Assembly (NCBI GenBank): GCA_013115135.1
Contig: JABANP010000123.1
Coordinates: 62,001 to 126,000, forward strand
Reading direction: 5' to 3'
Length of the DNA stretch: 64,000 nucleotides
DNA from: Perkinsus olseni
Taxonomy: Eukaryota > Perkinsozoa > Perkinsida > Perkinsidae
Numbering within the stretch: the stretch's first letter is position 1; each line of letters begins with the position of its first letter. The position numbers were made by a program, and so were the translations under genes. The notes under the pieces were generated by a model. It made no database searches and was not told where the DNA came from. It worked only from the letters and a program-made list of their open reading frames with translations. Of this stretch, positions 16,194 to 52,152 are shown piece by piece.

Positions 16194-19100
16194 ATGAACT
16201 ACGCCAAGTCTGCATTATCTTACTTCACACTGAAGAGATGTTACAAGTGAGCCAATTTGTCTTGTACTAGGGTCGACCTTGGATACCATTCAGGTATCTT
16301 TTGAAGAGGTTATTCGGGAGCTTCATAGTGCATGAAGATATCAACCTCGATCAATTGGACGTGGATCTGTATAAAGGACAAGTCAAGCTTGAAAACATAC
16401 ACATCCAGGCGGAGAAAATAAATAGCGTACTACAGGGAGTATCTTAGGTCGAAGCATGCTTTTCATAGTTCGGGGTTGAAAAAATCGTGAAATTATTGGT
16501 ATCATTCTCTACAGATCCTATCCTCCCTCAACGTACCTCTCGTAATGGTGAAGGGAACAATTAATCGGGTAGGCGGAGCGAAGCAGTGACACTGACGATG
16601 GAATGCGTCTTTTACTCGTGATGCAGATCCATCTGTCTGTGCCGTGGAAGCATGTATTCTCCCAAAGATGCAAGGTCTACTTCGAAGGAGTCGATCTGCA
16701 TTTCGCAATGCGGAATGAGGTCGCAATGGATCGCTCAGGTGGTGAGTGCGCTTTAGCCCAGTAGTAGTCGGACGATGGTCGTTTTCGGGGAGATCAAAAT
16801 AATACTTAAATCGAAGGAGACTTGCGGGCGGTCCCTTGCGTGCAGTGAGTATTTTACTATCTAAGATTGACGCCTTCGCTGTGCGAGCTCCGCCACTTCG
16901 TCACGGAGGCATAGTAATGTATAACTCTATGGAAATAAAAGCGATATGCACACCTACGGGGATTTGTCAAAAGCTTTAACTGTTATATTTCTGTGAACTC
17001 CCTTATTCATACGCACCACCAGGGAAGGGAGGAGGAATTCTGGAAGAGGGTTTCCTAGATCCATGAGAGGTCATCAGGGATTATATTCTCAGCTTCGCCC
17101 TTGGCTTGACTAGGGCCGAGAAACTTTAGTAACGGTATCACTTCGTGGTACTTCGTGTAGTAATTTATTGCAAGGACTGTCGCGGGGTTCGAACCCGCGC
17201 CCTATTGCCCTGGGTTATCGGTAAACTACTGAATTTGCAACCTGAGTGCTATTGAAAAGATCAATCAAAATGCCTCAGGCCTCAGTCAGGGAGAGATGGA
17301 TGGTCCTGTGAGACCAGGCGGACCTGATGGGCATGCTACTAGATCGTACATGGAGGCAGTGGAGGAGAGCCACGTAGGGTTCATTGGGGGGGACTGTATA
17401 TTGGTCATCTCCATTACTGAGTTGGCTGTATCATGACGGTAGTATTATACTTGTAGAATGTGCAGCACGTAGGAATGACGCGACTATGTCAAGCGGCGGC
17501 GGTCGAGCATCGGCCGAGCGATTCAAGCAGTGACCAACGGAGGGCGTTGGTCGTGGTGAGGTTTATCACTCTGGATCGTTTGTGCACCGCGTGGCCCACG
17601 CGGCGTGGGCGAGTAGCCTCATCTCTGCATGCGGGAGCATCGGAGAAATAGAGCGCAGGGGCCCGAGTAAAGACAGCGGCGGAAGATGGATCTCGATGGC
17701 GATTTCCTCCACCTTGGCCGGGCGAAGCTCTTGGCCCGCACTATCCCCACTAGGGCGGGGCTAAGTGGAAGGGCTTGCCGTGAGTTTCTGTAGAGGCCCC
17801 ATCGGATGCGGGTTGCTGCTGCTGCAGCTGATGATGATGAAAGAAGGAAAAACCCGAACTCCTCAGTTTGTGGAGATATCCAGACAATCCGAAAGTTTTC
17901 CGATGCTTCGATGTACCGCAACTTGAAGGATACGTACGAATGCTTAGTGATAGAGTGGGCAATGAGAATAGGCCTCAACTCAGCCTAGCACTAGCGTTGT
18001 GGCAGCTCGAGTATGAGGATATACCATTCAAGCAGGATCGTTTTAGGACGGGGGCTAGTCCATGTGCGTCAGGTGCCGGATGGAGTAGAGGCGCTCACGA
18101 GGTTGGTGCAACACATTCTGGTTAACTTGGAAGTGTGCCTGGCCGATGCTACCGTAACGCTGCATCCTGGGGGATGGGACCCCTCGGTCAGCACAGGTCA
18201 ACCTAAGATATGGGCGACTATGAAGGAGGTATCTTGAAGTCGACTCATGTGCTTTGTGGAGATGAAGATATTCATTCAGTTACTCATTTATTCGGATACC
18301 GAGACCCACCGTCTCCCTGATGCCAGTCCGAAACCGGCCGAATCGGAGGAGTTTTCGGAGGAGCTACCGGCCTCGCCGATCGATTCCAAAGGTGAATCTT
18401 CATTCTTCAGAATCTCTTGGTGGAGTAAGATTTTCGGATAGGTATGAGTTTGCTGTCTGTGGAGGTTTTCGTGGCGCGTGACGATGACACATCGAGACTA
18501 CTGCATACCGGAGGGAAGCCTATCCGCCTAGGGTTGCGACGGGTGGTCGAAAATTTATCTGAAGGAAGGCGGAGCGATGGGGATGACGAGGACCAAACGG
18601 CTACATTGGAGATTGAGGCTGAGGTATACAATCGTTATCGATCAGTCGGGCGAGCGCTTTTTGCGTTAACGTTAGGTGGAGGTCATCTACGCCGACCTCG
18701 ACCATCCGTCGTGTGAAAGCATGTTGGAGGTTTTTTATGGCACCATAAATTGTGAGGAAAAATTCGAGGAGGATGAGACGGAGCAGAACCATATGTTTTA
18801 TAGTGTGGGTTAAAATGCCGTCGGTGGGGATCGATCCGGGGACCTCTTGGAATAGGTTATGGAGTCTACGCCGCCCCCTCCTCGATCTTTATCGGCTGCG
18901 GAAAGAGCTAAGATGTTCTGGTGAGTCGATGTTCCGATCTAGTCGATCTGAAAACTTCGGTGCGAGAAAAATATCGCACCCAGGGATCGAACCGGGGGTG
19001 TCGGACCTACGTTTCTAGACACTAGGAATGCCCTATAAGTGGCGTCTCGCCATACGCGATGGACCATTCTCCGCCTGGTGATTGACGCCATTGTTATAAT

Positions 19101-22100
19101 CTCAGAATTTGCCGGTGAATAATGTCGTTACGGGGATTTGAACCCGGGACCCTCAGGTTTGAAATGTACCGGCTCTTCGATCTCGACTCGAAATTGGAGG
19201 CTCTCTGCAATAGTGAGGAAGAAGCGGATATGCATGTACCAAGCGACGAGTTCGGCTTCCGGGACGATGAACCGATACAGGGTAAGTATTCGGGCGAAAT
19301 TTGGTATCAAGGGTTGTAATTTCGTGGCGAGTGAAGGAATTCTCTGCTGTTCCACCAGCATTGGCACACACTCTCAAAAATTTTTCGGAATTTCCCCTGT
19401 TGAGCTTCGTGGAACGCGCCGAAAGATTCCGTGATGGAGGTGATAGTGGCGGAAGATTCTTGGTAGGTCGGGGTCATTCCATGGACCCGGGAATCGATAT
19501 TAGTATCGTTACTCCTGTGTTTGGCGATGCCTCTTGCATCGTACTCCCATTATCGATCGAGCGATCGATTTTAGTACTATGTATTTAAATGTATTTCGTT
19601 TACTTGGGTGGCATAATTTGTTGTTGTTAATGCGAGCTGGCGTGACGGGACTCGGTCCTTGCGGATATGTAGGGTTGCTTACTTGTTCGTATCTTAGGTT
19701 GACGATGGGTGGATACAAATAAAGTCACTGTGTATGCTTTCAGATTTAGCAGCCTTCGCTCCGCCTGGTGAGGAGTTCTGGTTCGACCAAGTCATCTTCC
19801 GCTTTGACGTTGGAGGCTTCCGTATCGGAGCTGACTTCTGGTTGACGACAGAACAACCCGAGGCGATCCTCCTCGGTGAGATCCCCTACTGGGGGCGAGC
19901 GAGATTATCTGTCGTCGTAGGTACTCTTACGTCCCTGAGTATTGAGTACTCCTGGTCACCCTCGGGCGGCGAAGAAGACGTGAACCAGGCGGAGTCGATG
20001 AGCAGCTTCCGTTTAAGTCTAGCTGGCTGGAGTGTGGGTATCGCACCGATGGACTGCAAGGTGGGCTGCCCCGAGTGTTCGATTAGAGGAAACCAGTCGA
20101 CGTCTGCTCGGTGATCGCACGCCCCTGCATGCTTTCCGTTCATGTGTCAGTCCCAAAGCTCGGCCTCGTCGCCCTTGGGGAGAGAGTCTTCGTTTTACTC
20201 CTCTCAGTACGATGGAAGTGCAGTCACTAAGGTAGACCCCTTGTTCGAGTGCCACCTGACGGCCCACTGCTGCTGCTGGTCTACCGAGATTGTTGTTAGC
20301 TGAGTTACTCGTTTTGAGCAGCATTTAGCGGCAGAGTGTCCCGGCCTGAGGCTCGAATCTTCGCTGTGCGCAGGATTCCTCCCCAACGAGCTCGCCGCAT
20401 TCGTCTCCAGCGAGTGTCGGCGTTCAACCGGCCTCGGCAGCAGCAGCAGGCCTTGAGGAAGTATTCTTCGATCGCCGGGGGGTTCATCGGTTGGTGGAGG
20501 AGCATTGTCGACTCCTACAATACACCGGTAGGAAAGGGTGGAGTGTTGAGGAGCACTGGAAGAATAATGATGCTGTGAGGTTGTGATGAAACGAAAAATT
20601 TAGGACTGGCTAGTAAAAGGGCGCGCCCGGATTTGAACCGAGGACCTGCTGATCTGCAGTCAGCCGCTCTACCACTGAGCTACACACCCTTGCTAGATTT
20701 TGCCGCCTCACTGCGGAGGCGCTCTATTTCTGCGTATGTACCCGGTTAGGAGGTGGCTCGTCGAGTGACTTCATCATCGGTCTTAATTCGCATCTTAGCT
20801 CTAGCCCACCCACCACCAGCATACCTTCTTTCGTCTTTAGAGGACAAGTCAGCAGCTGCGAGGGGGTGGACGAGGGTCGTCTGGTGTGATCACGACGCAG
20901 TGTCTATCACAGCAGGGCAGGTGGGGACCAGTCCATTTGCCACCCTCACTCGATGGCGTCCTCTCAGGGCCCTCCGCAGAGCGCATTAGGAGACATAGAA
21001 ATTAGCCTGGACCTGGACGTGGTCTGCAAAATGATGAACTTGAAGTTGCCAACACTTCCGACGTCTGCGGAAGGCAGCGGGTTCTGGGAGGACCAGCCGG
21101 CGGTGCGCCCGGCCACTGTGGTGGGCTACTGATGTGATGTCGCGCGCCGCGAAATTCGGTCGTGTTGCCGGGCTTAGGACATCCCTGCCTTCCGAGCGAA
21201 GAGCGTATCAGTGAACCTGTGGTTGAAAGATCCGTCGGAAGAGGAATCTTTGTCACATTCGCGCACAGCGAAGGTTTTCCTGACTGACCTTGTCGTGCAG
21301 CGCAACACGTGCCGGATTGGAAGACTTGCCGTTTCGGATTGTGAAGGTGGGATGGCGGGTAATTTCGTGGCGCAGTGACGGTCGTTGGCCGACACTTCCT
21401 TGAGCAGGTGACGATCGTACGATACTGTTGGAGACACAAAGCGGGCCTTCTGGCGAGGCTGCAGCGTCGCTGAGTTTATGGCGAGTGCAATCCGACATGC
21501 AGCGTGATGGTGAGGAGGGGTTAGCAAGCTCTAGCCCTGTGGAACTCTTTCGAACAGTCCCTGTATTAGTGCCTGCATCACCGTTGGCAGGGTCATGGGC
21601 TCTCACGTTTGGGCCCAGTCATGCGTTAACTGGTGCCCATATTACCCGGGGAATTGTCCACTCTCTCTCAGACCGCCGATCGCCCCTATCCAGTAGTAGG
21701 GACAGACTCGAGTTGCAACTCATCTTACCAAGCCTGACTTCTCCATCCGCGTGGCACCCCAAGCAAATCGGCAGCTTCACGAGATGTCTCCTCGATTTTG
21801 CCGACGCCATACCCGACCTCCCTCCAGCCTCTGCCGATGCCGAAGCCTCCCCGGGGGTCGGCCTGTCGGTGTACATTGACCGTTTGTCTATGGCGTTGGT
21901 GATGGGCGGCGACGAGGCGGACGTGGACCTGTCCTTCCGTATGTGTGCCCTCCGCGTGACCCCAGTGGGCTTGGGGAGGCATTGCACGGTCGAGGCCGGC
22001 GAGGTGTATCTGGGCTCGGTTCTGCGACCTTGGGTGCTGCGAGATCTCGACGCGGCTAGCAAGTACGGCGGCTAGTGGGAGGGCGGCGGTGAAGTGATGA

Positions 22101-25100
22101 GTTCTTGCAGGTTCCCGAATGCGTGTGAAGTTGAGGGTTTTGTGGATCACTCCCTGGCTGCTGCTGCTGCTCTGAAGGTCGAAGCGGATCTGCCGGAGCG
22201 AGGAGCTGTTGATAACAGGCGTGTCATCGCTACGCTGAAACGTGAGAGGGGAGGAGGCGAGTCTCGGCGAGTGCGGTTGGTGATGTTGTGGTCGGCGCAT
22301 CGATGGCGACGTGGAAGTCTGGTTGGTCAGGTATGCAGGGAGTGGCGAGGCCCTCCGAGGTAGCGTCATTGTCCGGTGTACTGGGGTTCATGGAGGAGGT
22401 GTCGGCTGAGGTTACTTCGGGGAGAGACTCGGTTGATGTTACAGGAGAGACGGCAATGTTTTATTTGTTGTTGGAAGATTGCCTCGTTGAGGGAGGTGAG
22501 CGTTGTTTGTTTGTCGTGGCTGTGTGGTCTAGTGGTATGATTCTCGCTTAGGGTGCGAGAGGTCCCGAGTTCAATTCTCGGCACAGCCCTTTTCTTTTCA
22601 GCCCTCCTCGATGCTAGCGTCTTCGCTCCGGCACCCGACCCGAACATCGGCAGCCGAGACGTGAGAGGCGCAATCACCTTCACCGGAGAGGCCGCCTTCA
22701 CTCCTCTCCCACCAAACGCCTTGACACGGACCGTCAAGGTGCACATCGCCGAGATGGCCATTTGGCTATTGGATGCTAGTGGATGCAAAATCGGCAAGGA
22801 AGCGGTAAGTGGGAGGGGTTGTCAGTGTGGCGATCCGCCAACATAGTGGAGCAACTCTTGGGATGGAGCTGAGCTGAGCTCAGCTCAGTGAGCTCTTTCG
22901 TATCTTACCATGTGCAACATTAGAAGCTTCTCGGCTCGATGGGCCCTGTGGCGGTCTCCTCTGAGTTGCTCCCTTCTTCATGTGTGCACCATTTGTCGGT
23001 GGATCACCACCGGCCACTCTCGGATATCAACAGATGTATCATCCAGACTATGTGAGGCCTTCAGGTACTTCCGTCACAGTCGTCAAAGACGGCTGGAAGT
23101 CTCCTCAAGGAGATTGGGTTCGCCCCGATAGGGGTAGCGAAAGGCGGCACTTTGGTAGTCACAACATCAGCAGTCCCTGTGGATGCCCAGCGAAGAGCTC
23201 GAATCGCGCTGGACGTGCATCATATTGAGGGTGAGGGGGGAGAGAACGGCTGGGCCGTGCGGCCTTATTCCCGGAATGCGCGGGAACAGACTTGTTTTTG
23301 AGTTCTTCACCGACCTGCTTGTCTGGAAGTTGTGATGGGTGGTGAGCGGTTTATCGGGAATAAGCTTTCCTAGATTGTTCGTCTCAATTGAAGAATTCGG
23401 CAGTCGTTGATTTGGTGACGTCCTCATAGGCCTGTTGCGGCTGCTGCTCAGTTTCCCTCTGTGCGGACTCCCTGGCCTGCGTGAGTTCCATCTCCGCCTG
23501 GATCTCCTCGCTCATCCCGTCACCCGAGGACACGCCCAACCCGCCATCATCCACTACACGGCAGAACGACGAAGAGGCTCCTGAGAAATCCGTGGGTCAA
23601 CCTAAGATTCCTCTACTGACCATCCCACTATCGATAGGGCCCTCGGCTATGCGTCATCGAGGACTTCGACGAGGGGGATGCCCAGCCCTCCGACAGCCCT
23701 CCAGCAGTGACTCCGATGGAGCCCCTCTCTCTTGAAGAGGAGGTCAGCGTGTGGGAGGATGAGGATGACCCCTGGCCCACCCATGGGGACAGCGACGCTC
23801 ACAATGCGGTAGGAGGCGTGGCCTTAGACGCTATGAACTCTATGCGCTTTAAGAGTCCTTCGAATCTGTCGTCCCAAGAGAGCCTCCCTCCACCACCCTC
23901 GAGACGGGAGACCTTGGACTGCTACGGCGGCGTGGAGACGAGCGCAACCTGGTTCGCTCCGCTAGATGGGGCGCTCTCATCAATGGGGAGCACTTCGGCT
24001 GCTCTGTGGGTGGCAGCAGCGCTGGCAGGTGAGGAGGGCTACCTTGGGCTGATCGATAGGATTCGGCTGGTTGTGCGTTTCCAGGGCCACACCGATGAGG
24101 AGCTCCTCCGGGGCAACAACACCCTCTAGAGGCCCTCAGGAAGGGCATGGGCTGTTGGACGGTCTCGAGGTGCGCGTCACGGCGTCACAAGTCGAATTGA
24201 AGCTTTATGATGGGAAGGACTGGAGCGAGAAACATGGTAGGTGTTGGCCGTGGTTCTCTGCGGGTTCTGCAGGATCGTTCAGTACGCGTTAAAATGCATC
24301 CTGAGAGCGCAACTGGACTTCAGGAGAGGCAGCAGCCTGTTGAACACCTCTTCATTGCTCTGGTATAGTTTTCGAGAGTATAGAAGGAATCTTAGGTTGA
24401 TGCGTGCAGAAAACAGAACTCACTGTAAATGGATAGCGTTGAACGGGACTAGGGCTCATCATCAGGCGTATCATCTTATTATTATAGAGTGTTAACTGAG
24501 TCGAGTATCTTATAACCCGTATTACTCCTTCATCGACCTAAGATACCCGCTTTAGGCACCTTGGCATCCCTGCGGCAAGTTCGCATGTCAACACGGGCGA
24601 AGAGGCCGACCATATGTGCCAAGTTGAAGGATGTAAGGATTCCGAGCCACTTGGAATCTCGCCAAATCTTGGATTTCCTTAACGTCTCAGGTTGGCGTTA
24701 CCGTGATATCCAAGCCAGGACCGTCTTCTTCTGCTGAGGGCCAGCAGCAGATCTCCCTGTGGTTGTCGATTGGCGATGTGACTATCATCGACTTACTACA
24801 GGCAAGCGTGTACCAGTACATACTGGTCTACTATGAAGGCAACAAGGGAGATCATCCTAAGGGGACTAATGTCTCTATGGTAGTACGTGGTTTGGCATTA
24901 TTATTGGCGTACCATAATTTCACCAACTCTAATCACTGTTCAATGGACGGAGAAGAATTCGTCGAGGACCGTGCGACAGCGTTAGGATGGTTGTTCTGAT
25001 GGAAAAAGTGCAAAAATGGGTCTATGGACGTATCTTTGCTTCATCCGTGTCTTACGCAAGAAGGTTGCTTTAGTATCTTCCATCATCCGTTCAGGTCCTC

Positions 25101-35539: not shown

Positions 35540-35754
35540 CAGCCTCGGCCGGAGCCCGAGGCCCTCGGGCCAGCACTCTAGCCAGGAGCCGATGAGCATT
35601 CCGAGTAGGCTCGGCTTGAATGGTTGAAGACTGACAAACGCGACAATGCAAAGTCTCTCTCGAGAACGGTTTAGAAAATAAGGCAAACAGTTGTGAACAG
35701 AAAGTCCAAAAAAGGTTGCTAGCTGAACAAAAGAATCTGTACATGATAATAAAG

Positions 35755-37569
35755 TTAGTGGGAATATCTCAAGTGCCCGTGGTTGAGCTTGGGGGCGCCG
35801 TTGCACTCGAAGTCGCTTGGTATCATCTCGGCGAGGTAGTCGTACATCAGATCGAAATCGCAAGTTTCCCTGAACGAGCGGTTAGAGAACACACGCGTGC
35901 TGACTGCTGAACTCACTTTCCACGGCACTCCTCGATGGCATCGACGGAGGCAACTCTGCCATTGAAGATCCATCGGGCCTGGTTATCGTCGTAGATCTCT
36001 AGGATGAGCATCGTGGCGAACGGCGGCCAGTAGTTGGCGCACTTGTGTTGGGAGTCCAACCCTGAGCGAAGCCATCGTAAATCAAGGGGGAGGGCCTGCA
36101 AGGGGCGGAGTTACATGTCAAATCCAGGGCAGCAGTGAAGACGCTGGTCGGGCCGGTATCATGACCGATGTAAACAGACAAACGCCTCTCTGGCAGGTCG
36201 AGGTCTTCGAGGACGTCCTGAGACATATCGGGTCAACAGATGCGCCATCGCAAAGCTGTTCACCTTGATGAGAGGGCCGAAGGCAAGCCGGCGAGTTTCT
36301 GCTGATGAGTTGTACTGCAGCAAGTCCCAGTAGGTGGCCTCGTCGGAGATCCTCTTCAACAGGGGACTCTCAGCGCCCAACCCGAAAGGCACTTCTCGCG
36401 AAGTGCTCGGCACTGTCGAGCAAATGTGGCTCATCAGGCAATCCTGAGAGGGATGAGAATGAAGCGATTAACAACCGCAAGGGAAGAACAGGGCTACCAG
36501 CATCCCGGAGTAGAGACCGTCCATTTTCTTCGGGTCGTTAGTGTTGAAGTCATCGTATCGACCGCTGGTAAGGCCAATGAACTTTCCGCTCAAGGGCCGA
36601 TTCATCTGTTCTCTTCACAGCCTCCGACGACTGGAGAAAGTCGTCCAAGGAGCCTGCTAGGCGTGAACACACCTGATGAATACCATAAATCTCGCAACTC
36701 GCTGATGATAAGAGCTCACCCTCGGCTTGGGTGTCATCGAATCGACATCGAGATCGTCAATGACTATGTCCAGAGCGTCGGGGCCATCTACCATGAGAAG
36801 GGTTGCTGCGAGGGAGGGCCGACGGCTGAAGCCTTACATTCTCGAATATTGGGGAAGAGCCCCATGGCCAGGGCCTGGGCGCTGTGGATGGTTCGGGTGA
36901 ACTCAGTTGATCGGAACATGACCTGGGGTTCCAGTGGGGCCTGATCAGCAGGGAGTTGACAGAGGAGTGGTATCGGTGTCCGAGGTACCTCTCCGAGGTC
37001 CAGGGACTCGGCGTAGGCTGCCCTGAGAGCTTGTCCGTTAAGAAGATGCTGCTGGATGCCGGGCTCCACCACTTGGCCTGATCGAAGACACTGACAGGGT
37101 GCTGAGCTCACCACAGGGCTCACCATAAGTGCAGTTTCCCTTCAACAGCATCCGCTTGCCGCCCAGTCTGGTCCAGCCGACCCCAGTGCCCTCAGAGGGG
37201 CTGTTGATGAACCCATAGTATGGTGGCGACGGGGCACATATACCTGGACACGGATGAAGGGAAGAGACAGGGACGAAGGGCTTACTCGGTATCATCTCCC
37301 TCCCAGCAGGTCAGGTCTCTGGTGAGCACTCTAGCACCATGACGACCAAAGACGACTACACGCTCCTACACAAGGTCCCGGGTTCAATTCCAGGCAGAGT
37401 CATTATAACCTACCGGCTTGGCATCAGGCTTGTCACTGCGCTCGGGTATGTCACCCCAAGTCATATCAGAGTGGCAATAATAGAGGGGGTCCTCTTCCGG
37501 GAAGGACACCCTCCCCTCAGCCTGGACCAGTGAGGTCACTGCGACTGCTGCTGCTACAATGAACTTCAT
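35755..37569 (-). CDS. Histidine acid phosphatase family protein, secreted, multi-exon
   Basis: ATG at 37569 gives the signal peptide MKFIVAAAVAVTSLVQAEG. Later exons follow the family order: VVEPGIQQHLLNGQALRAAY (cf. LTxxGxxQ..LGxxLRxRY), QVMFRSTEFTRTIHSAQALA then MGLFPN (the RSTxxxRTxxSAxAxxxGLFP strand), RLSVYIGHDTGPTSVFTAAL (the catalytic HD motif), PPFATMLILEIYDDNQARW (PPYAS.L.FEL), and CRGK|VFSNRSFRETCDFDLMYD near the C-terminus. The usual N-terminal RHGxRxP motif was not found; the expected site may lie in an unrecognised exon or be replaced, which would matter for catalysis. The protein is probably vacuolar or secreted. Intron 1 carries an inverted tRNA T-arm sequence. Confidence 0.75.
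37371..37408 (+). other. tRNA 3'-end-like sequence inside acid phosphatase intron 1
   Basis: Plus strand AAGGTCCCGGGTTCAATTCC then AGGCAGAGTC, a B box with an acceptor-like tail, antisense to the host gene. The intron starts on the minus strand at GTTATAATGACTC, right after the exon encoding DKPDAKPVG. Confidence 0.6.
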
Positions 37570-38197: not shown

Positions 38198-41100
38198 TCA
38201 TAAATATTCCAAGCTAGTGTCCTGGACATCCGATGTAGCATAGTTCTCAGAGGCTACAATGTCGGCCAGTCTCTCGATATGCCGCGCCACAGCCAACAGC
38301 TGGACACCGTCCCCCATCTTCGACCGCTTGGTAGGCGTACTCGTCGCTGAGGAGGCTTTGGCGACCTGAAAGGTGGACGAACCGTTGCAATGATACTATC
38401 TATGGTCCGCGCTACCGACCGATTTTGTCTGACCGTCTCCACCAGCAGCAGCAGCATTAGCGTCACCCTTCACAGCAGGCACTGAGGCCTGTATGGTGAC
38501 GAGGCAACGCTGGGGTACCAACGACCACCCCACCTCGGGTTCTGTGGTCGACGACGCAGACCGACAGGCCTGACGATCGGGTAAATTGAAATCGGGAGAG
38601 GACGGAGGCGGCATCGAGTGTTCAACAGACTGCTGCATCTTATGAATTGCAGGAGCGCTTCCAGGATGGAATTTAACGTATAAAAGACGATCGTAAAAGC
38701 ACTTTCGAAAGAAAGTCTATCGAGCATCCTGATTGCACACGAGGGAATCTCCTTTGCAAAGCGTCTCATTGCACTGCATGTCAGCAGCGAGTCCCTAACT
38801 GAGTACATGGGCTTCGAGTCTAACTGGGCCGAAACCGCAAGCGTCGGACCATAAACTCACTCAAACCCGGAGTGCCCCCTTGGTCAAACCTATCCGGGAC
38901 CTATAGCCACCCAGTGTTAGCCATTTCCTCGGTGATCGTCATGAGCCATGGCCTACCTCCTCTAGTGTTGCAGGGTTGGGTGGTGTGCTGGCCAACGCCT
39001 TAGCAGGCCTCATCACCTCCCAGGCAGCCTCCCCCTTCTCGCCGAGCACCTGGCCGTCCAGGCGACCGTTGAAAAGTCGACAGATGCGCACGACGACACC
39101 TTGAGGGCTGATACCTGAAATCCGTAACGAGCCATGATCAACCTAAGATACTTCGGATGCCCACCTTGCCAGAGGGGCGCCTGTATGCCGGTATCGCCGA
39201 TGAGTTCAAAGCCGCTCTGCATCAGGAAAGTTCGGATGTCGACTGGTGACGCGGGGCACTCTGTCACCGTCCGACCGTTGACCAGATATCTTCAGAGAGG
39301 AATTTCGTGGCGCGCGGTCACGGCAATGATGAGCTGCTTACTTCAAAGGAGCCGATTCGAGTGTTGAGACGTGTTGAGCAAGGACGGTACCTGAATGAAA
39401 GGCTTGCGGCAATCGAGGTCCCGGGTTCGAACCTACGGAGGGGTATTTTTGCGCCGCTAAACCGGAGTATCGTCTCTCCACAGCTTGACCTGATGCCACT
39501 ATTCGGCAGGTCGTAGAGGACTTGGGCCTCTGTCTCATGCACAGCCACATTCATATTACCGACACCGTGTAGCGGGCCTGTACCTGAGCAGCGATCAGGG
39601 TGGACTCTGAAAAAAGCCGAAAGAATCTTCAAGTTGGAGCGAATTTGACGGGAGTTGAGAGGAGCACATCACTGGGATGTTATTATGCAGCTCATCAGTC
39701 GATAGCGATTCTTGTGGCCTTGTGTGTTGACAATTTTTGAGATCTCGATACAGGGCGTGAAAGCCTCCGCTTTGGGAGCTTCGCCACTTCGTCAGCAGAC
39801 GACAGGGAAGCGTTCTGGCTGAGTATAATTGTGAGCAACATGATCGGGTTTGGGGTTAAATACTCGCCTAGTGACGACCAATGGCAGAAGATTAGCGGGG
39901 CTTTGGTTAAGCTCATTCAAGTAATATACGGTCAGTAGCATGCTGCCTCCTCAGTTATTGTTCTGGTCGTTCGGCAATTGTTGGTATGAACGCCTCTGGT
40001 CAGAGCTCGGCTAGTGAATACAATAATCGATACGTCACTAACGATGATAATTGGATACAAACCACGCTCAACCTAAAGATACTTACGTGAATAGCTCGGC
40101 AACACTCCGACGAGGGGACTTGACCTCCCTCATGCCCCCTCGGGTCACCAAATCCTCACCGAGAGCTTCGGAACAGTCACCCTTCACCAACACTGACAAC
40201 TGCAGTCGAAGATGCTGCACTGGACGACGAGATGTGGAAGATGTGGTATTAGAATCCATAAGAAACACACTTCCACGAAGAGGTGATGAGAAGGCAGCCA
40301 CTGGCAGGGCTTGCTACGATAATAAAATCTCTCGCTGCCAGGATCGGCAACCAGACAGGGGGCGTTCGACAGGCCAATTTTGAACCAGCTCACAATCAAT
40401 CTTTCTTTCTCGGCCAGGTGTGATCGTCCGACCAGTACCAGGGCCTTGGTCCAGCCGACCACAGGTCGCATTGACCGTTGCGGTCACCGACGGTTCTGTA
40501 ACCCCCTTTTTAGGTGTAATTTATACTCCAGAATTACTCTGAGGATCGGTAAATGACCACAACGCTGCTGTCCTCCGCATAACAATTTTTTATGTGGAGA
40601 AAAAGTATACTCGAGAATTGATTCTGAGTTGGTTCAGAATTAGCTCACTGAACTCCCCTGGAAACCGCTGAAAAATTCGGCCATTTGGAAATGCAACGCC
40701 CCGCGAACGTCGAACACCAAACGCAACCACTCCGGGAAGAACAGAAACACCCACAGAAACAAAAAATCATGGATTATGGATGATCATCGTCGAGTCGCTC
40801 CGAGTTCAGCCGACAAGATACTCCGCGACCTCCTCGTCATCAACACGCTCGCATATCCGAAGATATCTTTTCAAGTCGCTGAACGCCATACCAATAAAAT
40901 CGCAACTCAGCACAATACGGCGCACCTGTCCGACATCGGCAGTCGCCTTTCGACAGCCCTGACCAGCTTAGGGCGAGACGCTTCCCACAACTCAACTGCG
41001 GCTGATGATTCACTCGAAGGGAGGCACGCCATCAGGCGAGACATCACCGACAGGAGCTCCCTGGCAGCCCGGTCCTGAAGGGGTTGGTTCGATGACTATC
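38198..41100 (-). CDS. Unidentified intron-rich gene (3' end clear, 5' end not)
   Basis: Coding exons are evident on the minus strand. One near 40440-40300 reads ALVLVGRSHLAEKERLIVSW. TECPASPVDIRTFLMQSGFE then LIGDTGIQAPLWQ (39267-39165) is spliced across a 50-nt intron to GISPQGVVVRICRLFNGRLD and GQVLGEKGEAAWEVMRPAKA. After a low-complexity segment (KGDANAAAAGGDGQTKSVG) come KMGDGVQLLAVARHIERLAD and IVASENYATSDVQDTSLEYL, with TGA at 38198. I do not recognise the family; the C-terminus resembles a nuclear or regulatory protein tail. Introns contain the GTATCTTAGGTTGA motif (39138-39151, 40069-40083), the AATTTCGTGGCGC motif and a tRNA T-arm sequence. The 5' boundary near 41.1 kb is a guess. 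Confidence 0.45.
38618..38685 (+). repeat. ~65-nt dispersed intron element, copy 3
   Basis: Starts GTGTTCAACAGACTGCTGC; the inner part is GGAGCGCTTCCAGGATGG, then AATTTAACGTATAA. It is closest to the copy at 51348. Confidence 0.55.
39115..39164 (-). repeat. 50-nt intron with the GTATCTTAGGTTGA motif
   Basis: Donor GTGGGCATCC, acceptor GGATTTCAG. The motif begins 13 nt inside the donor, as in ATG2 intron 2. The flanking exons stay in frame (APLWQ, GISPQ). Confidence 0.65.
39413..39450 (+). other. tRNA T-arm-like sequence, antisense to host gene
   Basis: GAGGTCCCGGGTTCGAACCT followed by ACGGAGGGGTATTTTTG. It is probably within a short intron of the unidentified minus-strand gene. Confidence 0.5.
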
Positions 41101-41213
41101 TTCGAGAACGAGCGATGAGTTCTTTCCGACTCACAGCAGAGAGATAGAGGAAATGCATGGTGGTGGATATAGTAACATACGGTATGTGCCAGTTCGATAC
41201 ACAAATAACATTT

Positions 41214-41326
41214 TTCTGCAAATTTTTCTGTGAATTTTGTGTAAATTTTTCTGTAAATTGTTCAGTAAATTTTTTTGTAAATTTTTTCGTGAATTTTTCT
41301 GTAAATTTTTCTGTAAATTCCTCTCT
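41214..41326. repeat. 12-bp imperfect tandem repeat
   Basis: Unit close to GTAAATTTTTCT, about nine copies, T-rich on the plus strand. Because 12 is a multiple of 3, the minus strand stays open (EKFTKKFT..), but this is probably not protein. Confidence 0.75.
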
Positions 41327-41799
41327 TAATCGACTTTCTCGTGAAGCATGATTCATCATTGACCTCTCCCACACACAGTGAATACGCAGAAAAACATCAT
41401 TCGCACATCGAACAGGCGCGTACCATAAACTACGATCGAATTCCCGCCAAGACTTGGGCGCTGATAAAAGGCAAGCGGGCTTCCTACCGATGATGGCAAG
41501 TCGGCTTCCGCTATGTACTCAATAACATCATAAACGATGGTCTCTTTCAGTCTTGCTATCATGGCTGTAGCCTGATCAGAAAGAAGAGTACGTCTTCAAT
41601 TGCCACGCCAAAGCCAGCGGTTTTTGGGGGGCGTCAAGCTGTGCCCCTGTAGCTATGCATCGCGAGCTTATCATCACCAGAAAAGCATCTAATCGCAGTG
41701 TTGAAGCAAGTCCCGCCTTCGTACTGCTAATTTCGTAATGATACGCTATAAGCTACAACAGAACGCAGTCGGGCAACAGCGGAGCGAAGCGATGCATGA

Positions 41800-44700
41800 A
41801 TTAAAAGATTCGTATCCTTCTTGCCTGTGGCATAGCACTGAGGCACTCCACTATGAGTACTCCCTCATGGACTCTGGCAAGGCCGTCGTCCCCTGCGGAA
41901 GCAGCCCTGCTCTTCATGTAGTGATGATTCAGCGTCGGCAACTGAATACATCAAAGATGTCCTCGCAGGGATTCGAACCCGGGACCTTCCAGCCTCACCA
42001 GTCGCGTGTTCACGAACTTCTCATCGTAGTGCTTCAGCTTCCTCAACGCTGCCATCAGCTGCAGACACCCTTTTGTGTCTAGCTGCGTAGTGGTATAATA
42101 AAGACAAATTTTAATCATTTTCTCCAGACACCTCCGCAAGGCATCCCGAAGGCCGTCATCGACTGTCTCTATGTCAACCACCGTCGCCATCGACACTATA
42201 AACCTGAAAGTTGAGCCACCAAAAGAAGCACAACCGAGTAACCTCAGGCATAGCGATAATTTCATCGCACGACCTCTACCGACCGACTAGCGGAGCATTC
42301 TCTCACACAATGATCTTGTCGTGTCTCAAACGCTGTCTCTCGCGATCTACCCGAACCCGATAGAGGTGGGCGACAGTACAGGTACGGCCTAGTACGGAGA
42401 ACGGTACGGGTACGAGTATGGCTCCGTACCCGTACTACCCGTTGCAGCGGTTCCCAAGTACCGTACTAGTACGCCGTACTTCAAGTACGGAGTAATTTGA
42501 TACACGTATGCGTTGTCTAATATAGTTGATACGTACTGATTCTCCGTATCCGTACTAAGTTGACAGTTTGGAACGTACACCGTACCGTACTTTCCTCGAC
42601 CCCAGTACGGTTGCACAGCTCTAGAACCCAAGCAACAATCTGAACCCGTCTGAGCTCTACCAACCTCGAGGTGAGGTGCAGAACGAAGAAGCTCCCCTAC
42701 CGATGGGCCTCCAGTGGGGTCACAGGCTTCCGCTTTCTGCTGCTTCCAGCTGTGAGATCGTCATCGGACACAAGACGAGTAGTGAGCTCTTCACAGAGGG
42801 CCGAGAACAATGGCGGCGACAAGAAACCCAGCTGAGGGTAGGAAAAGGAGACAGACTCCCATGTTACAAATTATACTCTATAATTTCCACTCACGAATCC
42901 TTCTGTGAGGGAAGAGTATCTTTGTTGCACTGTCGTACGGCGTATATTTACGATCGCCATTCACTAACCTCGAACGCTTCACTATCAGGTTATCTATAAT
43001 TTAATCTTCAATTCAACTTCTCAAGATTAACCTGGTTATAGGGCTACCCAGATTACGATTTTCATGGTCTCGTGAAAGCTTCACATAATTTCGTGGCGCG
43101 CGGTAATTTCGGGTTACCTTGGCGTATGCTTGGGCTATTGCACATAGTTGGAAACTCTGCAGTTGCGGAAGATACTCCGGCAGGACTGAAGCCGCCACCT
43201 CGAAGAGAAGTTGTACCTCGACAGGGCCTTCTCCGACTAGGGTCGAAAGATACTTCATAATAGAAGTCAAAAGAGACTTTATCATAGAGGTCGAAAGATA
43301 CCTCACGAAAGAGGTCGAAAGATACTTCATAATAGAGGTCGAAAGATACTCTATCATAGAGGTCGAAAGATACTCTATCATAGAGGTCGAAAGATACTTT
43401 ATCATAGAGGTCGAAAGATACTTCATCATAGAGGTCGAAAGATACTTTATCAGACAAGACCAGAAAAATACACCAACAGAAAAGAAAAGGTACTCATACG
43501 GTATGAGTCATACCCGATTTGTCGTCAGCTCAGTACAAATAATTCTACACTATGTATACAATTGGAAAAAGTCTAAAAATTTAATTTCACCTACTGAGAG
43601 TTTGAACCTGATTCATTAACACAGTATTCGTTACGACCACAAGAATACACTCTCCCAAAACTGTGCCTACAACCTTCCGAGGCAAGCGCGCAGTACATTG
43701 CCCGCCTCCGGTTGGTGCCCCTCCTCCTCCTCTCCATTCATCGGCCGTCTCAGTCGAGGCAGCCGACCATACGACTCCAGCACGCTCACCAGCTGTCCAG
43801 CATGCAGCTCACTAAGCCTCGACACCAGTACACCAGCTGAGAATATGTCGTGACCGGGGTTCGAACCCGGGACCTCCTCCCTCACCAACAACATCCAGCA
43901 CTTGACTGTCATACATCCTCGACTGTCCGCTAGCTCGAGCGATGAGCCGACAGTCCGAGACCGACATGCAGGAACTTGGCAGGGCGACTGAATCAGAGCA
44001 GACCACGTCTGAGGATCACCGAACGCTGCAGCCCTCCACGGCAAGAGGACGGGGAGGATACACTCGGCGATCGTTCTTCACCGGAAAGATATTCTCTAAT
44101 TCCACCAGAAACGGATAGGATTTCCGAAAGTTGTGGTATCATATTAATTTAGTTTCAATCACGAACTTCGCGGTGAGGGATTTTCTACTGAGCACTGATT
44201 TTTCCTTTTCGCTCGTCATTTTTTGACAGTTTCTGTATTTTTTTGTGATTTTTTTATTTCATTTGCAGCATTTTTTGCTCGTCGCATCGAGGAGAATCAG
44301 TCCCTCCCACCCTCGGAGTCCGCCTTCCCCGAATCTGCTGCCGCGCCGCCTCCTCCTTTTCCGGAACCTCTCCTTCATTCAACCCCATCGCCTCCAACTC
44401 GCCGAGTATCCGCCCGTTCAACTGAACACACAAACATAAATCCACGCACGTGGAATCTTAGGTCGAACACAGTCTTCCACAAAAAAGGTCGACTCACGAA
44501 ATATCCTAATTATTGTAAACCCACTCACCGCAATAAACCACCCTTCGAAACAACTTCACAATTGCCAAATAAAACCTGGACGGGTGCCATCAAACCGAAA
44601 GATACGATAAATTTCTTCGTAAATGAAAACTGTTGCAGAAGCTCCAAGAAGTTTTCATTCACCCTCCGGTCGTTCCGAGTCTTAAGAGTGGTCAAGCAGC

Positions 44701-45575: not shown

Positions 45576-45669
45576 GATACTCCCTATATCTTAATCGCCC
45601 GGCTTCACGCATTCGAACGAACAAAACAGCAGAGAACGAATGATCTCAAATTACAAGCATGGCCAAATA

Positions 45670-45705
45670 CTGAAAAATGGAGGTACCAGGAATCGAACCC
45701 GGGAC
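45670..45705 (-). other. 36-nt tRNA-3'-end-like intron
   Basis: Minus strand GTCCCGGGTTCGATTCCTGG then TACCTCCATTTTTCAG. GT and AG borders are present; the frames of the flanking exons were not resolved. Confidence 0.55.
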
Positions 45706-45740
45706 CTCCTCACAGTCTACTACATTATGTAACACCAGCA

Positions 45741-48700
45741 TCAATTATACACCAACCCGTATCCTACAAGATGCGCTCGTCCTCTTTTACCATACCCCAG
45801 TACACAGCAACAGCCACAGCCGCAACACTCATGGCAAAAGCGCGCGCCCCGTATCTTCGACCTCTCCCATATCTGCCACTCTGCGACCTTAAGATACTCC
45901 ACAGCTGAGTTGGTGTAGAGCAAATCCTCGTCGACTGGCCCGACCGTCGCCCGCATTTGCCGGGCCAATTCCAACCGCCCCGCGATGTCCCGGTGGCTCA
46001 ATAAAAGGTTATACAAATTTCTTCGCTCCGCTGTCGATAGAGATATTTTATAAGCACTAAGGCCGTGACAAATTCTCAGCAATGCATTCGACGAGAGCTT
46101 CACCAAGCCACCGAAATTCGGCAATCGTGAAACACTTCGCTCCGCTAAGTCCCGGGATTTCGGATGCACCGATCTACTCAGCCGAAACTGAGCAACCCAC
46201 GTCTCAATCACATGCCGTTCGATCGTTTTCAGCTCCCTCTCCTTCTCGACAAACCGCAGTGCTTTCAGATCGCCACCGGCCGAGAACGGCTTGACCGCGC
46301 GCCCCAAAATTATCCCAGCTTGTATCCACAGCAAAAGCATCGTAGCGAAGAGCAGTGGAGTGCCTCTCCGACCAACTCCGATCAGCCAGGACAGCAGCAC
46401 GTGCCTTGGTCTCCATTCCGTCGGGCAGGCCGGCGGCGATACCATCTCAAGCGCAACATTATTGAGCCCACCGATCACAGCAAAGGACGCTACGTAAATC
46501 GCCAAGACGACCAATACCCTGAGGCTGAGCAGGGGCCAGAAGACCCTGCCCGGCTCCTCGCGAGATCGAATCGCTACTGAAGCGGACCCCTGGAGATACT
46601 ACTCGCCAGACCGCCGACATGCCGTGAAGGGTGGACACAGCTGATTCGACGACCATCTTGCCGCCGCTTCGCTCCGCCGTCGACCGTACTAGCATCATTT
46701 TGATGATGATAAGTACTTGGGAAACGACGTATTGGATTAAGTACAGCAAACTGACGAGCGTGAAGGACTGAAGGAGGGCCGCATGGAAGGCTGTCGGACG
46801 GGAGTAGGGTAAGAGCCCATAATCATTCAGGAGCATCAGAGACGCAGTCGCCCCCGCCGAGGTCGCCGCAGCAGTATCTGAAACCGCCAAAAGATACCAT
46901 CACAACTAACCCCGTCGTACAGCCTTGCCCACTCCTGAAGCCTGTTGCATGCCTGCAGCGAGAAATCCGAGTTCGACGTCCCAAGGTCGGCTTTCCCACC
47001 CATCCCCTACTAAACCGATGCCACTCGGAATGGTCGATTTCCCCTTAAATTGGGCTTGGAAATGTGAGCACCTTCCTTGCTGGCTGCTGTGTAAGAGGGC
47101 GATAGCGTGTAAATTATTGAGAGACTCTGTGATTGTGATTGGTCGCTCTCCTCATGCCTGGACACGACTACCCTATTTCGAGTAAGAATTATTCTTTATG
47201 CTAAACGGTTCGTTTGATTCAACTGCGGCTCTCCAATAAACCAATTTCAAAACTCAGAATCGATTCTGCGTGAAAATATTAGAGGTGGGCGACAGTACGG
47301 GTACGGTCTAGTACGGAGAACGGTACGGGTACGAGTACGGCTCCGTACCCGTACTACCCGTCGTAGCGGTTCCCAAGTACCGTACTAGTACGCCGTACTT
47401 GAAGTACGGCGTAATTTGATACACGTATGCGTTGTTTAATATAGTTAATACGTACTAATTCTCCGTACCCGTACTAAGTTGACAGTTCAGAACGTACACC
47501 GTACCGTACTTTCCTCGACCCCAGTACGGTTGCGCAGCTCTAAAAAATATATTCAAGAATCGTTTTCATAACCAGCTCGTTAAACTGGGACTCCGTTACA
47601 TCACTCCGGCAGCCAACCGAAAATATCCCGTCCGGCAAGGTACTACTAGAAGTAGCCGCTCCCGCCACCGCAGCGAGGACTGCTGTCGGTGTCATCTCAG
47701 GCCAGTCAAGGCAGATCTCGGTCGGAGGTTCGCAGCCCAGCAGGGGCATGGACGCCTTACGGAGATGCTTCGACAACAGGCCCGAGGTGAACCTGAGGCC
47801 AACACTGAGGCCAACCTCGCAACGGGAAGGCGTATACTTGTACTCTTTTTAACAACCACAGCGGAGCGAAGCATTCAATCTCCCATTTTCGCGAGGAGCA
47901 ATACTTATCACGTTGATAATTACCCGACAGAGATCGAGCGGCGACAGTAGACGGGCTACACCTCCCGAACGAGATATTCTACTCCCGCATTCTACCACTA
48001 GATACCACAGCGGAGCGAAGCATCACAGCGCTCATTTTCGAAAGACCAATGATCAGTACGTAAATAATCATTCTCTCTGACAGCGGGATAACGGCGAAGT
48101 TAAACGTGCTACAGTCCTTCGACTCCGAGGGGCGTCGGAAGATACTTCATCCTCTAAATCGTTTTCACCAATCGCGTTAATGGGGAAACTAAATCAAGCT
48201 CCGCAGCATCATTCAAGAAATAGTATCCTAGATGCCTGCAATCAGCATGCTTCAACCTCCAACAGGCGTCCTCGCTATATATTCAATACCACATTTCCCC
48301 CACCTCCCGAAGGATACACCCCCTCCTACTGGTAATGTCGAGCAGTATGGTGATGATACTCCCCAGCAAGCCCTTCTGAATAGCCCTCAGCATAATACAC
48401 GTCAATCAGCAGCCGCAAGTAGGTGACGGCCAAGAAGTCCGATATCTTCCACGGTGACACTTCCTGTCGCCGTAGACGCTCAACGACCGCTTCCCGTATC
48501 TTGCCAGCATGAGCCAAAGATACGCCCCGGGCAAATAAATATTCTCACGTAGCGAAACCTCGCCAGCCCGGCGAAATATGAAACGCCCATATCGACCATT
48601 GGAGTCCAAAGCTTCGTGACACATGATCCTCGAAGCTGATTATTTATGAGACTCTGCCTGTTTTTCGTGAGAACGGCTGTTTTCCTTCCAATTTGAGTCC

Positions 48701-49130
48701 ACTACTCGAATCCAGCGGACGCCAAGTTTTTGTCAAAAATTCCATCAAAATTACTCGACTACCCCAACTGTTATACTACCTCCTCCCACTCGGCAGCCTT
48801 TTCATAGCAATCCTCAGCACTCTGTTTTAGTATGCTCAACTCTTCCTGCTTTCTGCTGACGACTTCCTGCTGTTCATCTAACAACGCTGTGCCGTTCTAA
48901 AAATACACTCCCTGGGATTCGAACCCACAGCCTTGCCTACCACAGCACCTCGTCCACCCCCTTTCCGCCAACATAGCGGGCCATCCTGTCCAACATCTCT
49001 GCATCTCTACTCACTGTAGTGTTGAGAGCCGACGCCCGACTACTCAGTTCCGTACAGGAAACTGAGACCGCCACCACTACTCTGTAAACCATGCGAACCG
49101 GAGCAACCGAGAGAAGAATCTCCCACACTT
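45741..49130 (-). CDS. Second helical-repeat gene region, intron-rich
   Basis: Minus-strand coding blocks include MLDRMARYVGGKGVDEVL (48990-48950), SPWKISDFLAVTYLRLLIDV then YYAEGYSEGLAGEY (48460-48370), CEPPTEICLDWPEMTPTAVL (47740-47680), FHAALLQSFTLVSLLYLIQY then VVSQ, joined by a 60-nt intron to MVVESAVSTLHGMSAVWR (46790-46600), and LPNFGGLVKLSSNALLRICH then GLSAYKISLSTAERRNLYNL (46120-46010). Alternating hydrophobic helices suggest an alpha-solenoid like its neighbour; translation through retained introns imitates membrane helices. Whether this is one gene or two is unresolved. It contains a MITE, GCGGAGCGAAG copies at 46138-46148 and 46666-46676, and a D-arm-like motif at 46293-46315. 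Confidence 0.4.
47282..47540. mobile_element. 259-bp MITE, copy 2
   Basis: Same length, ends and orientation as copy 1, again flanked by TA (47280-47281, 47541-47542). It sits between coding blocks of the helical-repeat region. Confidence 0.85.
48893..48938 (-). other. tRNA T-arm-like intron
   Basis: Minus strand GTAGGCAAGGCTGTGGGTTC..GTATTTTTAG, with GTGGGTTCGAATCCCAG at its centre; GT and AG borders enclose about 46 nt. Confidence 0.5.
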
Positions 49131-49689
49131 TCAGCCAATTTCCTATTTTTCTATCAGAAAAAAAGGGCTAGCACGTCCGTCTCCCTGTGAATCCCCTTTC
49201 ATATGCCATCCACCACTACCCCTCAATCGTTCGCTCTCCTCCACAGCGTCCGTGGACTCCAGCCGCCCCCTCAGTGTATGGCCGGCGAAGAAGGAGAGTC
49301 GGAAGAGGGCATAGACGAGTAGTAGGAACTCCCCTATCCGCCCACACAGCCGAGGCCTTCTGTGGAAGACGTATGAACCTGGTCGAGGGTGGGAAGGCGG
49401 AGGGACAAACTGACCATGAGATACTTGAAAGAGTAGATATTTTAGTATCTCCTCTCCGTATCCGTGGCCGCTGTATCAATTCTGTAGATTATTATCAGTA
49501 ATACCCGTTTTCATCGACCACCAGCCGGCATTTTCTGCGAACGAGCGACAACACTCTCGCTTGAGGCTAAGCAGTAGCCTTGAACCGGATTTGGTGGGGT
49601 CCGCCCCGCGGGTTACAGTATTGGTAGTGGAAAGCGGGAACGTGTCTGGCAAGAATTTTCAGCCCTTCCCTTTGCACAAGCATAGCAAC

Positions 49690-52152
49690 CGAAGCGATGT
49701 CAAATCCATCGCTACGAACACGTCAAGATAAAGCCTTCGCACCTACACCCTACACTACTACCTGTTGCGGATACTCCTGCTACTCCCGCTGTTGATGAGA
49801 AGGCCGCTAGAGTTGTGGACACCGAAGGGACCAGTGACCCCAGCATAACAACAACAACCCTGGGCCACTTCAAGATTGAATACTCCATGACACAACACTT
49901 CTCTGATGTTCCATTCAACAACAGCATGGATGAGCTCAGCTGGTATAAAAGCCACCGTAAGGATTGCGATTTTGGAACTTCTCCACCAGACCATGACGAT
50001 ACCCCCGGTCTTCGAGAGGGTCCTTCTCGATAGTGACAGGTTGCCGAGATGCCGGTCTGAGGCAAACCGCCGTCGGCCCCGATCTGCTACTGCAGGCTGG
50101 CCTACCTTTGGCGATGCTGGAAGGTCCCTGTGCTGCTACAGGCGATGGGCAGCTGTCTTATCTGAGCGGAGCGACGTGGTGGTGAGGAGGGTACATCGGG
50201 GCTCACCCGGTCTTCCAAGGGTAGATCTGCTGCTGCTACCGCCGCAGCGCCGCCTTTGCGCTTCTTCTGACCTAATGGGATGTCAGGTGGCTGGGCTACG
50301 AGGATGATGAGAAGTTGAATAGAAAGGGATACGCTCCCGACGACGCAGCAGTGGAATCCGAGTGAGCTAGACTGAGAGACGTCCGGTGGGCGTGTGGTAG
50401 GAGAACGACGAGAAGAAAGCCCGCATGATTTTCCTCGGCTTTTTCACCCCGAAAATGCGATAGACAATTTCCTTTGTAACCGTTAAGTTCGATGATGCAG
50501 TAATACCGTGGTTAACGCCCACGACCAGCAGAACCACTCCCTCAAGGAGGAGATGCCCCTCTTACTTTTCTTCCCGGCCACTTGCGACGGCTCCACTGTG
50601 GCCTTCCGCAGGCTGTCATCTGTCTGGACGCCCTGCGATGCTACACCGAGCAGGGCGGCTTCTGCGGCTGCCTGAAGGTCATCTCATTTATCGCCATTCC
50701 CGACTCGCACCACTGGGGACAAGGGGATTCCAACTGTGTAACGAGTTCATGGGTTTTCAAGATCGATGGCGCAGTTGGCCGAAAGAAAGACAGATTACAC
50801 GAACTAACTACAATGTTTACACTCGTAGGGACCGATTCTGGGAAAAATCGAAACTGAACCGCGCTTTAAGAGTAAATATATAACGCTCTCACTGGGAACT
50901 GAACCGGGGATGGTAGGTCAGCGGAGAAAGATTATACCACCACACCAATCTTTCTTGCTTCATACAATCGTTACCTCCTTCTGCCGCTGCTTTTGTAAAT
51001 TCTCAGCAAAGCTCGCGTACTGCATGGTCTCATTTTCTATCAGCCGTTGCCACACAACTTGAAGCTTCCAAGGGTCCGACATTTCAACAACAAAGACGGT
51101 AACAGTCGAGTCAGGGACAAACTGTCTCGGCGTTAAGGAACTTCAAGATAACGCAAGATGTCCAAGATCAGGGTCTTGGAGCAGCAACATGCTTTTTCCC
51201 TTTTTGTCTATCGTTATTGGCCTACTATACCGCTGCTGCCCCTGTCGACCCCATAGCAGTGAAATGGAGGATAGATGATTCCAAGGTGAGGATGTCTGCC
51301 CTCACACGTCTCGATCGCTGTCATACGGAGCGTTCAGTAAACTGGGGGTGTTCAATAGACGGCCTCTCCTCAGTTTCTGGAGCGCTTCCAGGATTGAATT
51401 TAACGCGTAAGAGACGATCCTGGGAGCGCTGTTGAAAATTGGGAGCGAAAGCAGTCTGTTTACAATCTGGACTGATTGTGGAATTCAGAACAGTTTCTGT
51501 ACCCGTATTTCGCGCGTAAAAATCAGTTCCAGTACAGATTCTGAGGTTCTGAATTGGTTCATTGAGCATGAGGATTGGCAGCAGCTGGCCTTTTTCTCGG
51601 CGCGCTGAGATTCCCTGTCATATATCAACATAAGGCGGCTTCCTTCGCAGGATATTCACGTCGGTAATTCTGCAGCGCAGTCCGCCTGGGAGAGCTACAT
51701 CGAGGAGCCCGGCAGGGACTCAGCCACCCTCAGGATCATGGTAGGTATTAGGGAGGCCTTCTCAAGGGCGGAATTAAATTCTCAGAATCTTCTTGATACT
51801 GATAAGTCGAACCCCATCGGTGGTTACTAGACTTGGGATGGGCCATGCCACGCTGGGTTCGTCTACCCCGCACCCCAACATCCACCTTTCTTGAGTAACA
51901 AATCAACTCTAATATTGAATAGCAATTGGGTCGTAGTTGTGACTGGCGGATTTATTGGGAGAGCCGGTGCATCTCGGAAGTGATTTTCTCGCAACAGTGT
52001 CCGACCTGACGACCTAGAATCCGTGTTGCACTAGCTCGACATCAAGATCCCCTCAGATGGTCGTATTAACCCTAGCCGGCATCTTCACCCTCTTCTACAT
52101 CGTCTACCTCTGTGCCAGACGTCTCAGTCCCAAGAGCCCCCCAGCAAGGTAG
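49690..52152 (+). CDS. Putative membrane-anchored protein, multi-exon
   Basis: Coding blocks on the plus strand: PATPAVDEKAARVVDTEGTS, then TTTTLGHFKIEYSMTQHFSD and VPFNNSMDELSWYKSHRKDC (49780-50000); SLKEEMPLLLFFPATCDGST then VAFRRLSSVW (50530-50630); AQSAWESYIEEPGRDSATLR then IM at a GTAGGTA donor (51680-51740); and a last exon MVVLTLAGIFTLFYIVYLCA then RRLSPKSPPAR with TAG at 52150. The final exon is one hydrophobic helix followed by a short basic tail, as in tail-anchored or type I membrane proteins. I do not recognise the family. The start was not found, and joining these blocks into one gene is inference. Confidence 0.4.
50886..50925 (-). other. tRNA T-arm-like sequence
   Basis: Minus strand CATCCCCGGTTCAGTTCCCA then GTGAGAGCG; weaker than the others (TTCAGTT). 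Confidence 0.35.
51348..51410 (+). repeat. ~65-nt dispersed intron element, copy 4
   Basis: GTGTTCAATAGAC..GGAGCGCTTCCAGGATTG then AATTTAACGCGTAA; same order and orientation as copy 3. Confidence 0.55.

Follow-up and report, generated by a model that had tools for sequence, protein, structure and literature searches.

The stretch of the Perkinsus olseni genome analysed here (contig JABANP010000123.1, positions 62,001 to 126,000; 64,000 nucleotides, referred to below as the window) carries predicted genes for ATG2, a histidine acid phosphatase and two helical-repeat proteins, and in or near their putative introns lie short blocks that resemble the 3' half of a tRNA gene. The ATG2 assignment comes from 53 residues that match ATG2_CAD at 1.1e-7, below the cut-off of that family; a downstream exon of the acid phosphatase gives His_Phos_2 at 2.5e-5, a little over the cut-off for that family, and one peptide of a helical gene matches Sec23_helical at 0.038, not over a junction. 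A sequence-only reading of the window had named 11 places with the T-arm (B-box) core of tRNA genes, and the core is present at all 11, in degenerate form near 18845 (GGATCGATCC) and 50905 (GGTTCAGTTCC). With both strands counted and one mismatch allowed, GGTTCGAAYCC matched 14 times, at nine places of which one is the tRNA-Cys gene, against 1.99 expected, and 0 of 100 shuffles reached 14. Cloverleaves with paired stems, called by ARAGORN and by Rfam at its gathering score, number only three in the window: Trp, Cys and Pro (Table 1). The Cys and Pro genes had been placed in introns of ATG2. Both genes stand by these calls; the intron around the Pro gene, in which the terminator T-run plus CAG would be the 3' splice site, is unproven by homology, as its spliced peptide had no Pfam match. 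Directly after the complete Trp gene of the window and a complete Asn gene elsewhere (L052), a T-run and CAG also resemble a ready 3' splice site (TTTTTCAG; TTTTTCTCGTATTTTCTCAG).

We counted motifs in the whole genome (61.5 Mb, 968 contigs). GGTTCGAAYCC, of which the near-palindromic form counts on both strands, gave 866 + 847 = 1713 matches against 24 + 31 = 55 for the reversed pattern, and GGTCNNNGGTTCGANYCC gave 648 + 569 = 1217 against 1 + 1 = 2 for its reversed control. With at most one mismatch, AAGGTCCCTGGTTCGANYCC occurred 316 times and its control 0 times; GTAATCNRAAGGTC alone had 104 matches against 0, while variants of CTCTCAY showed no clear excess (10 against 6). These T-arm counts include some tRNA genes, and the 1217 matches are not all introns. 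Among 43 exact GGTTCGAATCC sites in the sampled loci and the window, ARAGORN called five as tRNA genes and 38 were not tRNA genes. The genome-wide excess of the T-arm core is thus confirmed.

The non-tRNA copies share a fixed anatomy. When the 38 fragments were aligned on G53, conservation was limited to about -9 to +24, in the order AAGGTC, T-loop, CAG, about seven mostly variable positions (G favoured at +17 and C at +19), A and a T-run. The block reaches from the anticodon loop to a T-run that is spaced as it is behind tRNA genes, and the family has a consensus of its own, GTAATCSRAAGGTCCC..TTCGA..ATTTT..YAG. In 89 non-redundant sites from which tRNA genes had been filtered (34 of them from loci chosen for CCTGG), the first TTT began exactly at +21 from G53, where a tRNA gene has its Pol III terminator, in 31 sites and within +19 to +23 in 43, compared with 5% in flanking control stretches; 25 sites had no TTT up to +69. 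At position 73, A stood in 36 of 59 sites (six of the 59 are tRNA genes). In the set chosen by CCTGG, the consensus extends in many members to GTAATCSRAAGGTC or GTGAGTAATC.... The GTAATCNRAAGGTC search ascertains sites without using the B-box, and all 12 sites fetched from the 100 places listed carried the T-loop core at tRNA spacing, as TTCRA in nine and as ATCGA in three; the latter variant is also that of the window block at 18810..18844. GTA or GTG was found at a fixed offset of -18 in 18 of 94 sites and of -22 in 10. Like introners, the copies are thus similar near both splice boundaries in several genes, with GTAATC or GTGAGTAATC donors at -18/-22 and a T-run/YAG end, although they vary at about seven positions in between and in many of them the -18/-22 donor is absent.

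Splicing was inferred by protein homology: at 10 hand-picked sites, two of them in the window, the flanks were joined over the putative intron and the peptides were scanned with the curated Pfam cut-offs; the two window peptides had no match. T-arm blocks lie inside introns of eight unrelated genes with strong homology (six sense, two antisense) and of two more with weak homology, so that copies, as expected of introners, occur in many non-homologous genes. Matches over the junction and above cut-off were found for HATPase_c (8.7e-14), SNF2 (3e-27), Vps53_N (3.2e-19), PAP_NTPase (8.6e-16), zinc_ribbon_6 (1.5e-22) and DUF726 (2.9e-21), and weak ones below cut-off for Response_reg (4.3e-5) and Ank_4 (0.0026). 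The solved poly(A) polymerase 2hhp aligned across the poly(A) polymerase (PAP) junction with no gap; the alignment of the ISWI protein 6pwf also crosses the SNF2 junction, next to which it has a gap of one residue. For the antisense introns, Angel2 aligned over the junction of one (L103; 2.3e-10; Pfam Exo_endo_phos 1.7e-4, below cut-off), and CNNM2 aligned without a gap over that of the other (L113; 1.5e-7; no Pfam match); two further antisense spliced peptides (L117, L092) had no Pfam match. The sense introns are 53, 47, 50, 48, 55, 46, 53 and 51 nt long and the antisense ones 54 and 59 nt, so that the tRNA-like block fills most of each.

All eight sense introns start with GTA, and the GT of the AGGTC or AGGTT-like variable loop follows 4-18 nt downstream. 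The sequence-only reading had taken the variable-loop AG|GTCCC as the donor; the reading frame excludes it in six of the eight, and it is merely disfavoured in L101 and L112, where an AG|GTC donor would add six and four residues, respectively. The splice sites 43837-43873 and 41942-41985 of that reading were not borne out: because the supported sense introns start upstream of AG|GTC, 43837-43885 (49 nt) and 41942-41998 (57 nt) are the likelier bounds. The spliced peptide of the former had no Pfam match, and the latter had no Pfam support over the junction with either end (41985 or 41998). The acid phosphatase intron also gave a spliced peptide (79 residues; DKPDAKP joined to ERVVVFGRHGARV) with no Pfam match. 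The view that T-arm blocks form introns of unrelated genes in both orientations is supported by homology elsewhere in the genome, and none of the window introns (acid phosphatase, two helical genes, the tRNA-Pro intron of ATG2) is proven by it.

Table 1. T-arm blocks, tRNA genes and putative introns in the window
Position	Strand	Feature	Basis
14430-14501		tRNA-Trp gene	ARAGORN, Rfam
17185..17196	-	T-arm core with an unusually long tRNA-like flank	pattern search, sequence
18810..18844	-	tRNA-like 3' block GGTCCCCGGATCGATCCCCAC-CGACGGC-ATTTTAA, T54-to-A variant, in predicted ATG2	sequence
18983..18993	-	T-arm core, then GTGCGAT-ATTTTT	pattern search, sequence
19115..19156	+	putative 42-nt ATG2 intron, antisense tRNA-like block GTGAATAATG...GGGACCCTCAG	sequence and open frame, no homology proof
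20617..20690	-	complete tRNA-Cys(GCA) gene, antisense in ATG2	ARAGORN, Rfam
22496..22601	+	putative 106-nt ATG2 intron, mostly complete tRNA-Pro(AGG) gene 22518-22589	tRNA call, sequence
37366..37413	-	putative 48-nt histidine acid phosphatase intron, T-arm antisense, GTAG at both ends	sequence
39424..39434	+	T-arm core, CGAGGTCCC before, ATTTTT 11 nt after	pattern search
41942..41998	-	putative 57-nt intron GTGAGGCTGGAAGGTCCCGGG...GTATTCAG (earlier 41942-41985)	frame only
43837..43885	-	putative 49-nt intron GTGAGGGAGGAGGTCCCGGG...TTCTCAG (earlier 43837-43873)	frame only
45670..45723	-	tRNA-like block GAGGTC-CCGGGTTCGATTCCTGG-TACCTCC-ATTTTTCAG, possible 54-nt intron	sequence
48915..48925	-	T-arm core, GGAGTGT-ATTTTTAG behind	pattern search, sequence
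50892..50909	-	degenerate T-arm core CCCCGGTTCAGTTCCCAG	sequence

Intron gain is suggested by one gene. The site of the PAP intron (L110) is uninterrupted, within a single exon, in two paralogues (L169 and L170; 40 and 46% identity within the matched part); another match, to a third paralogue, contains one stop. From these intron-less paralogues, insertion would be the cause of the gain. Reverse splicing into mRNA would not by itself account for introns made of antisense copies, and the elements would have inserted at the DNA level, by transposition or retroposition.

In our view these sequences probably belong to an introner-like family dispersed through the genome, whose members measure about 45-60 nt, derive their body from a tRNA-gene 3' half (anticodon loop to Pol III terminator) and are spliced in both orientations. 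One copy landing in an exon would make one spliceosomal intron, and the family may move as DNA or as retroposed copies. In a sense copy, GTA or GTG at or near the end of the anticodon loop (GTAATC.., GTGAGTAATC.., GTAGGTC..) would be the 5' splice site, the terminator T-run would play the part of the pyrimidine tract, and the acceptor would be a YAG shortly downstream of that run; in an antisense copy, the donor would lie beside the A-run and the acceptor beyond the anticodon end. A bolder proposal, which we hold tentatively and at somewhat less than even chance, is that a tRNA-gene 3' half was a ready-made intron, with GTAA of the anticodon loop as donor, T-loop adenosines as a possible branch point and the Pol III terminator as pyrimidine tract, which turned into a mobile, orientation-independent introner family and founded perhaps hundreds to more than 1000 introns in Perkinsus.

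Several observations weigh against this interpretation. Eight of the 17 distinct spliced peptides, CNNM included, had no Pfam match over the junction; nine had one, in three cases below cut-off. All the peptides were hand-picked, so that the nine are no measure of the share of introns among T-arm sites, and the splicing itself is predicted from protein homology. Open frames continued over AG|GT...YAG at 53 sites (including six tRNA genes) no more often than at 389 control AGGT sites (P = 0.42); this test, which assumed the AG|GT donor now thought wrong, is uninformative. Target-site repeats at the junctions of 13 introns were not above chance (lowest P 0.086); many introner families have target-site duplications and terminal inverted repeats, which are not required. 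At the duplicated loci L120 and L113 no intron-less copy was present among the copies found: the element was kept in all (four copies; two copies), and those insertions are therefore older than the duplications. Finally, pairing of the T-stem has been lost without covariation, so that a single tRNA parent is not identifiable.

The parentage was examined with 19 sampled tRNA sequences, a 29-nt consensus and the acceptor 7-mers. The consensus matched tRNA-Met(CAT) best (23-24 of 29), followed by Arg(TCT) and a Tyr gene (23 of 29), and only 20 of 649,792 control 29-mers without TTCRA scored at least 20. Descent from a tRNA gene is consistent with these matches. An upstream A-box reached full score in six of 59 sites (the set with six tRNA genes); three control stretches gave 3, 0 and 4, and the excess is not clear.

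The sequence-only reading had proposed that insertion of tRNAs or tRNA fragments creates introns; taken as direct insertion, fragments of many different tRNA genes would have entered repeatedly and independently. That the blocks form introns in the register of a tRNA 3' end was upheld, and the presence of complete tRNA genes within putative introns also speaks for such a process, as does the 7-mer, which is variable where acceptor stems differ and lies nearer to the sampled tRNAs than shuffled ones do (at least 5/7 in 50 of 94, compared with about 25 after shuffling; 6/7 in eight, compared with 4.1). However, none of the 94 7-mers is identical to any sampled tRNA sequence, the T-stem halves pair no better than shuffled ones (pairs 49-65, 50-64 and 51-63 in 48, 46 and 37 of 89 sites against 51.1, 45.5 and 40.1), and the sites share their own consensus, with a GTAATC donor at a fixed offset. 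Of 102 sites, eight agreed with the 3' part of a tRNA in 28-29 of 29 positions and were excluded as tRNA genes, while none of the remaining 94 exceeded 24; one of the eight (L068:124-204), without an ARAGORN call, is 87% identical to the tRNA-Pro gene of the window over 68 bases, the 3' 29 bases being identical, and is hence not a 3' fragment. It is therefore unlikely that each block is a direct fragment of a tRNA gene. The data fit a family with a past origin in a tRNA 3' half, which afterwards spread and drifted as a sequence, rather than a continuing supply of new tRNA fragments.

Convergence, in which an intronic protein-binding or splicing motif merely resembles a tRNA 3' end, would explain the unpaired T-stem and a consensus that behaves position by position, and another motif, GTATCTTAGGTYGA, is likewise dispersed. 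We regard it as improbable, for the T-run is most often at the exact tRNA-gene distance, A is favoured at position 73, the variable loop reads AGGTC, 13-14 of 17 positions outside the B-box match tRNA-Met, and both orientations work, unlike a strand-specific RNA signal. Least probable is that fragments of tRNA-derived short interspersed elements (SINEs) landed in pre-existing introns: five sampled loci do contain a repeat of about 320 bp that has a T-arm some 47 bp into it, but introns of 46-59 nt hardly exceed the block and leave no room for an older intron, the donor is at a fixed consensus place, and two PAP paralogues have no intron at that site.

Other repeats were seen besides the short elements. 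The repeat of about 320 bp, separate from them, may be a tRNA-derived SINE; its copies in L060, L069, L076, L080 and L081 are 84-94% identical (L049 matches more weakly) and have a T-arm and a T-run close to the repeat start. Between L080 and L081 the likeness is 99% throughout the stretch. The motif GTATCTTAGGTYGA, perhaps another introner family, had 13 matches with at most two mismatches against 0.66 expected (window positions 16439, 19689, 24533, 28373, 31962, 39138 and others), some of them, by eye, at apparent 5' splice sites. GCGGAGCGAAG and ATTTCGTGGCG are dispersed short motifs among the commonest 11-mers of the window and loci L039-L098. By eye, the window also has two copies of a repeat of about 250 bp rich in GTACGGGTACGG (42360-42610 and 47290-47545) and tandem units of about 24 bp, AGAGGTCGAAAGATACTTTATCAT (43240-43460). 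Elsewhere in the genome, tRNA A-box matches form a tandem array with a unit about every 150 bp (G000:C154:133-4772; one unit read as Lys) and repeating groups (G000:C172:58499-73262; units read as Asn, Lys and Tyr genes). The spliced-leader sequence CCGTAGCCATNTTGGCTCAAG had 146 genome matches with at most one mismatch against 0 for the control, and its exact form with C falls within Perkinsus marinus PmaSL1 as given in PMC3101222; by sequence, the genome carries the published Perkinsus spliced leader.

The origin of spliceosomal introns is an old open question. If our proposal is true, tRNA-derived elements and intron gain would be connected through a Pol III gene fragment that supplies the intron; the idea is testable across Perkinsus genomes and would bear on the intron richness of the branch next to the dinoflagellates, home of other introners.

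Complete tRNA genes nested in introns resemble the tRNA-Cys and tRNA-Pro genes in the putative ATG2 introns, whereas the members of the Perkinsus family are not complete tRNA genes. A tRNA-derived SINE has a head with A-box and B-box, then a body and a tail. Like such SINEs and tRNA retropseudogenes, the Perkinsus elements have lost cloverleaf pairing and kept the B-box; unlike the SINEs, at 45-60 nt they have no clear A-box, body or tail and end at the terminator T-run. Among the matches listed in the open PMC literature, a scope that leaves aside subscription papers such as Roy et al. 2023, no title concerned tRNA-derived introners or Perkinsus introners, and the words Perkinsus, tRNA and SINE do not occur in the main text of PMC9860276. 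As described there and for Amoebophrya in PMC7789003, insertions were searched in both the same and the opposite orientation, and families without target-site duplications were reported; the intron sources discussed in PMC9860276 include DNA transposons and reverse splicing. The closest likeness is to these introners (PMC9860276; PMC7789003), in which similar short sequences form whole introns in many unrelated genes, while the anatomy of a tRNA-gene 3' end belongs to the Perkinsus family.

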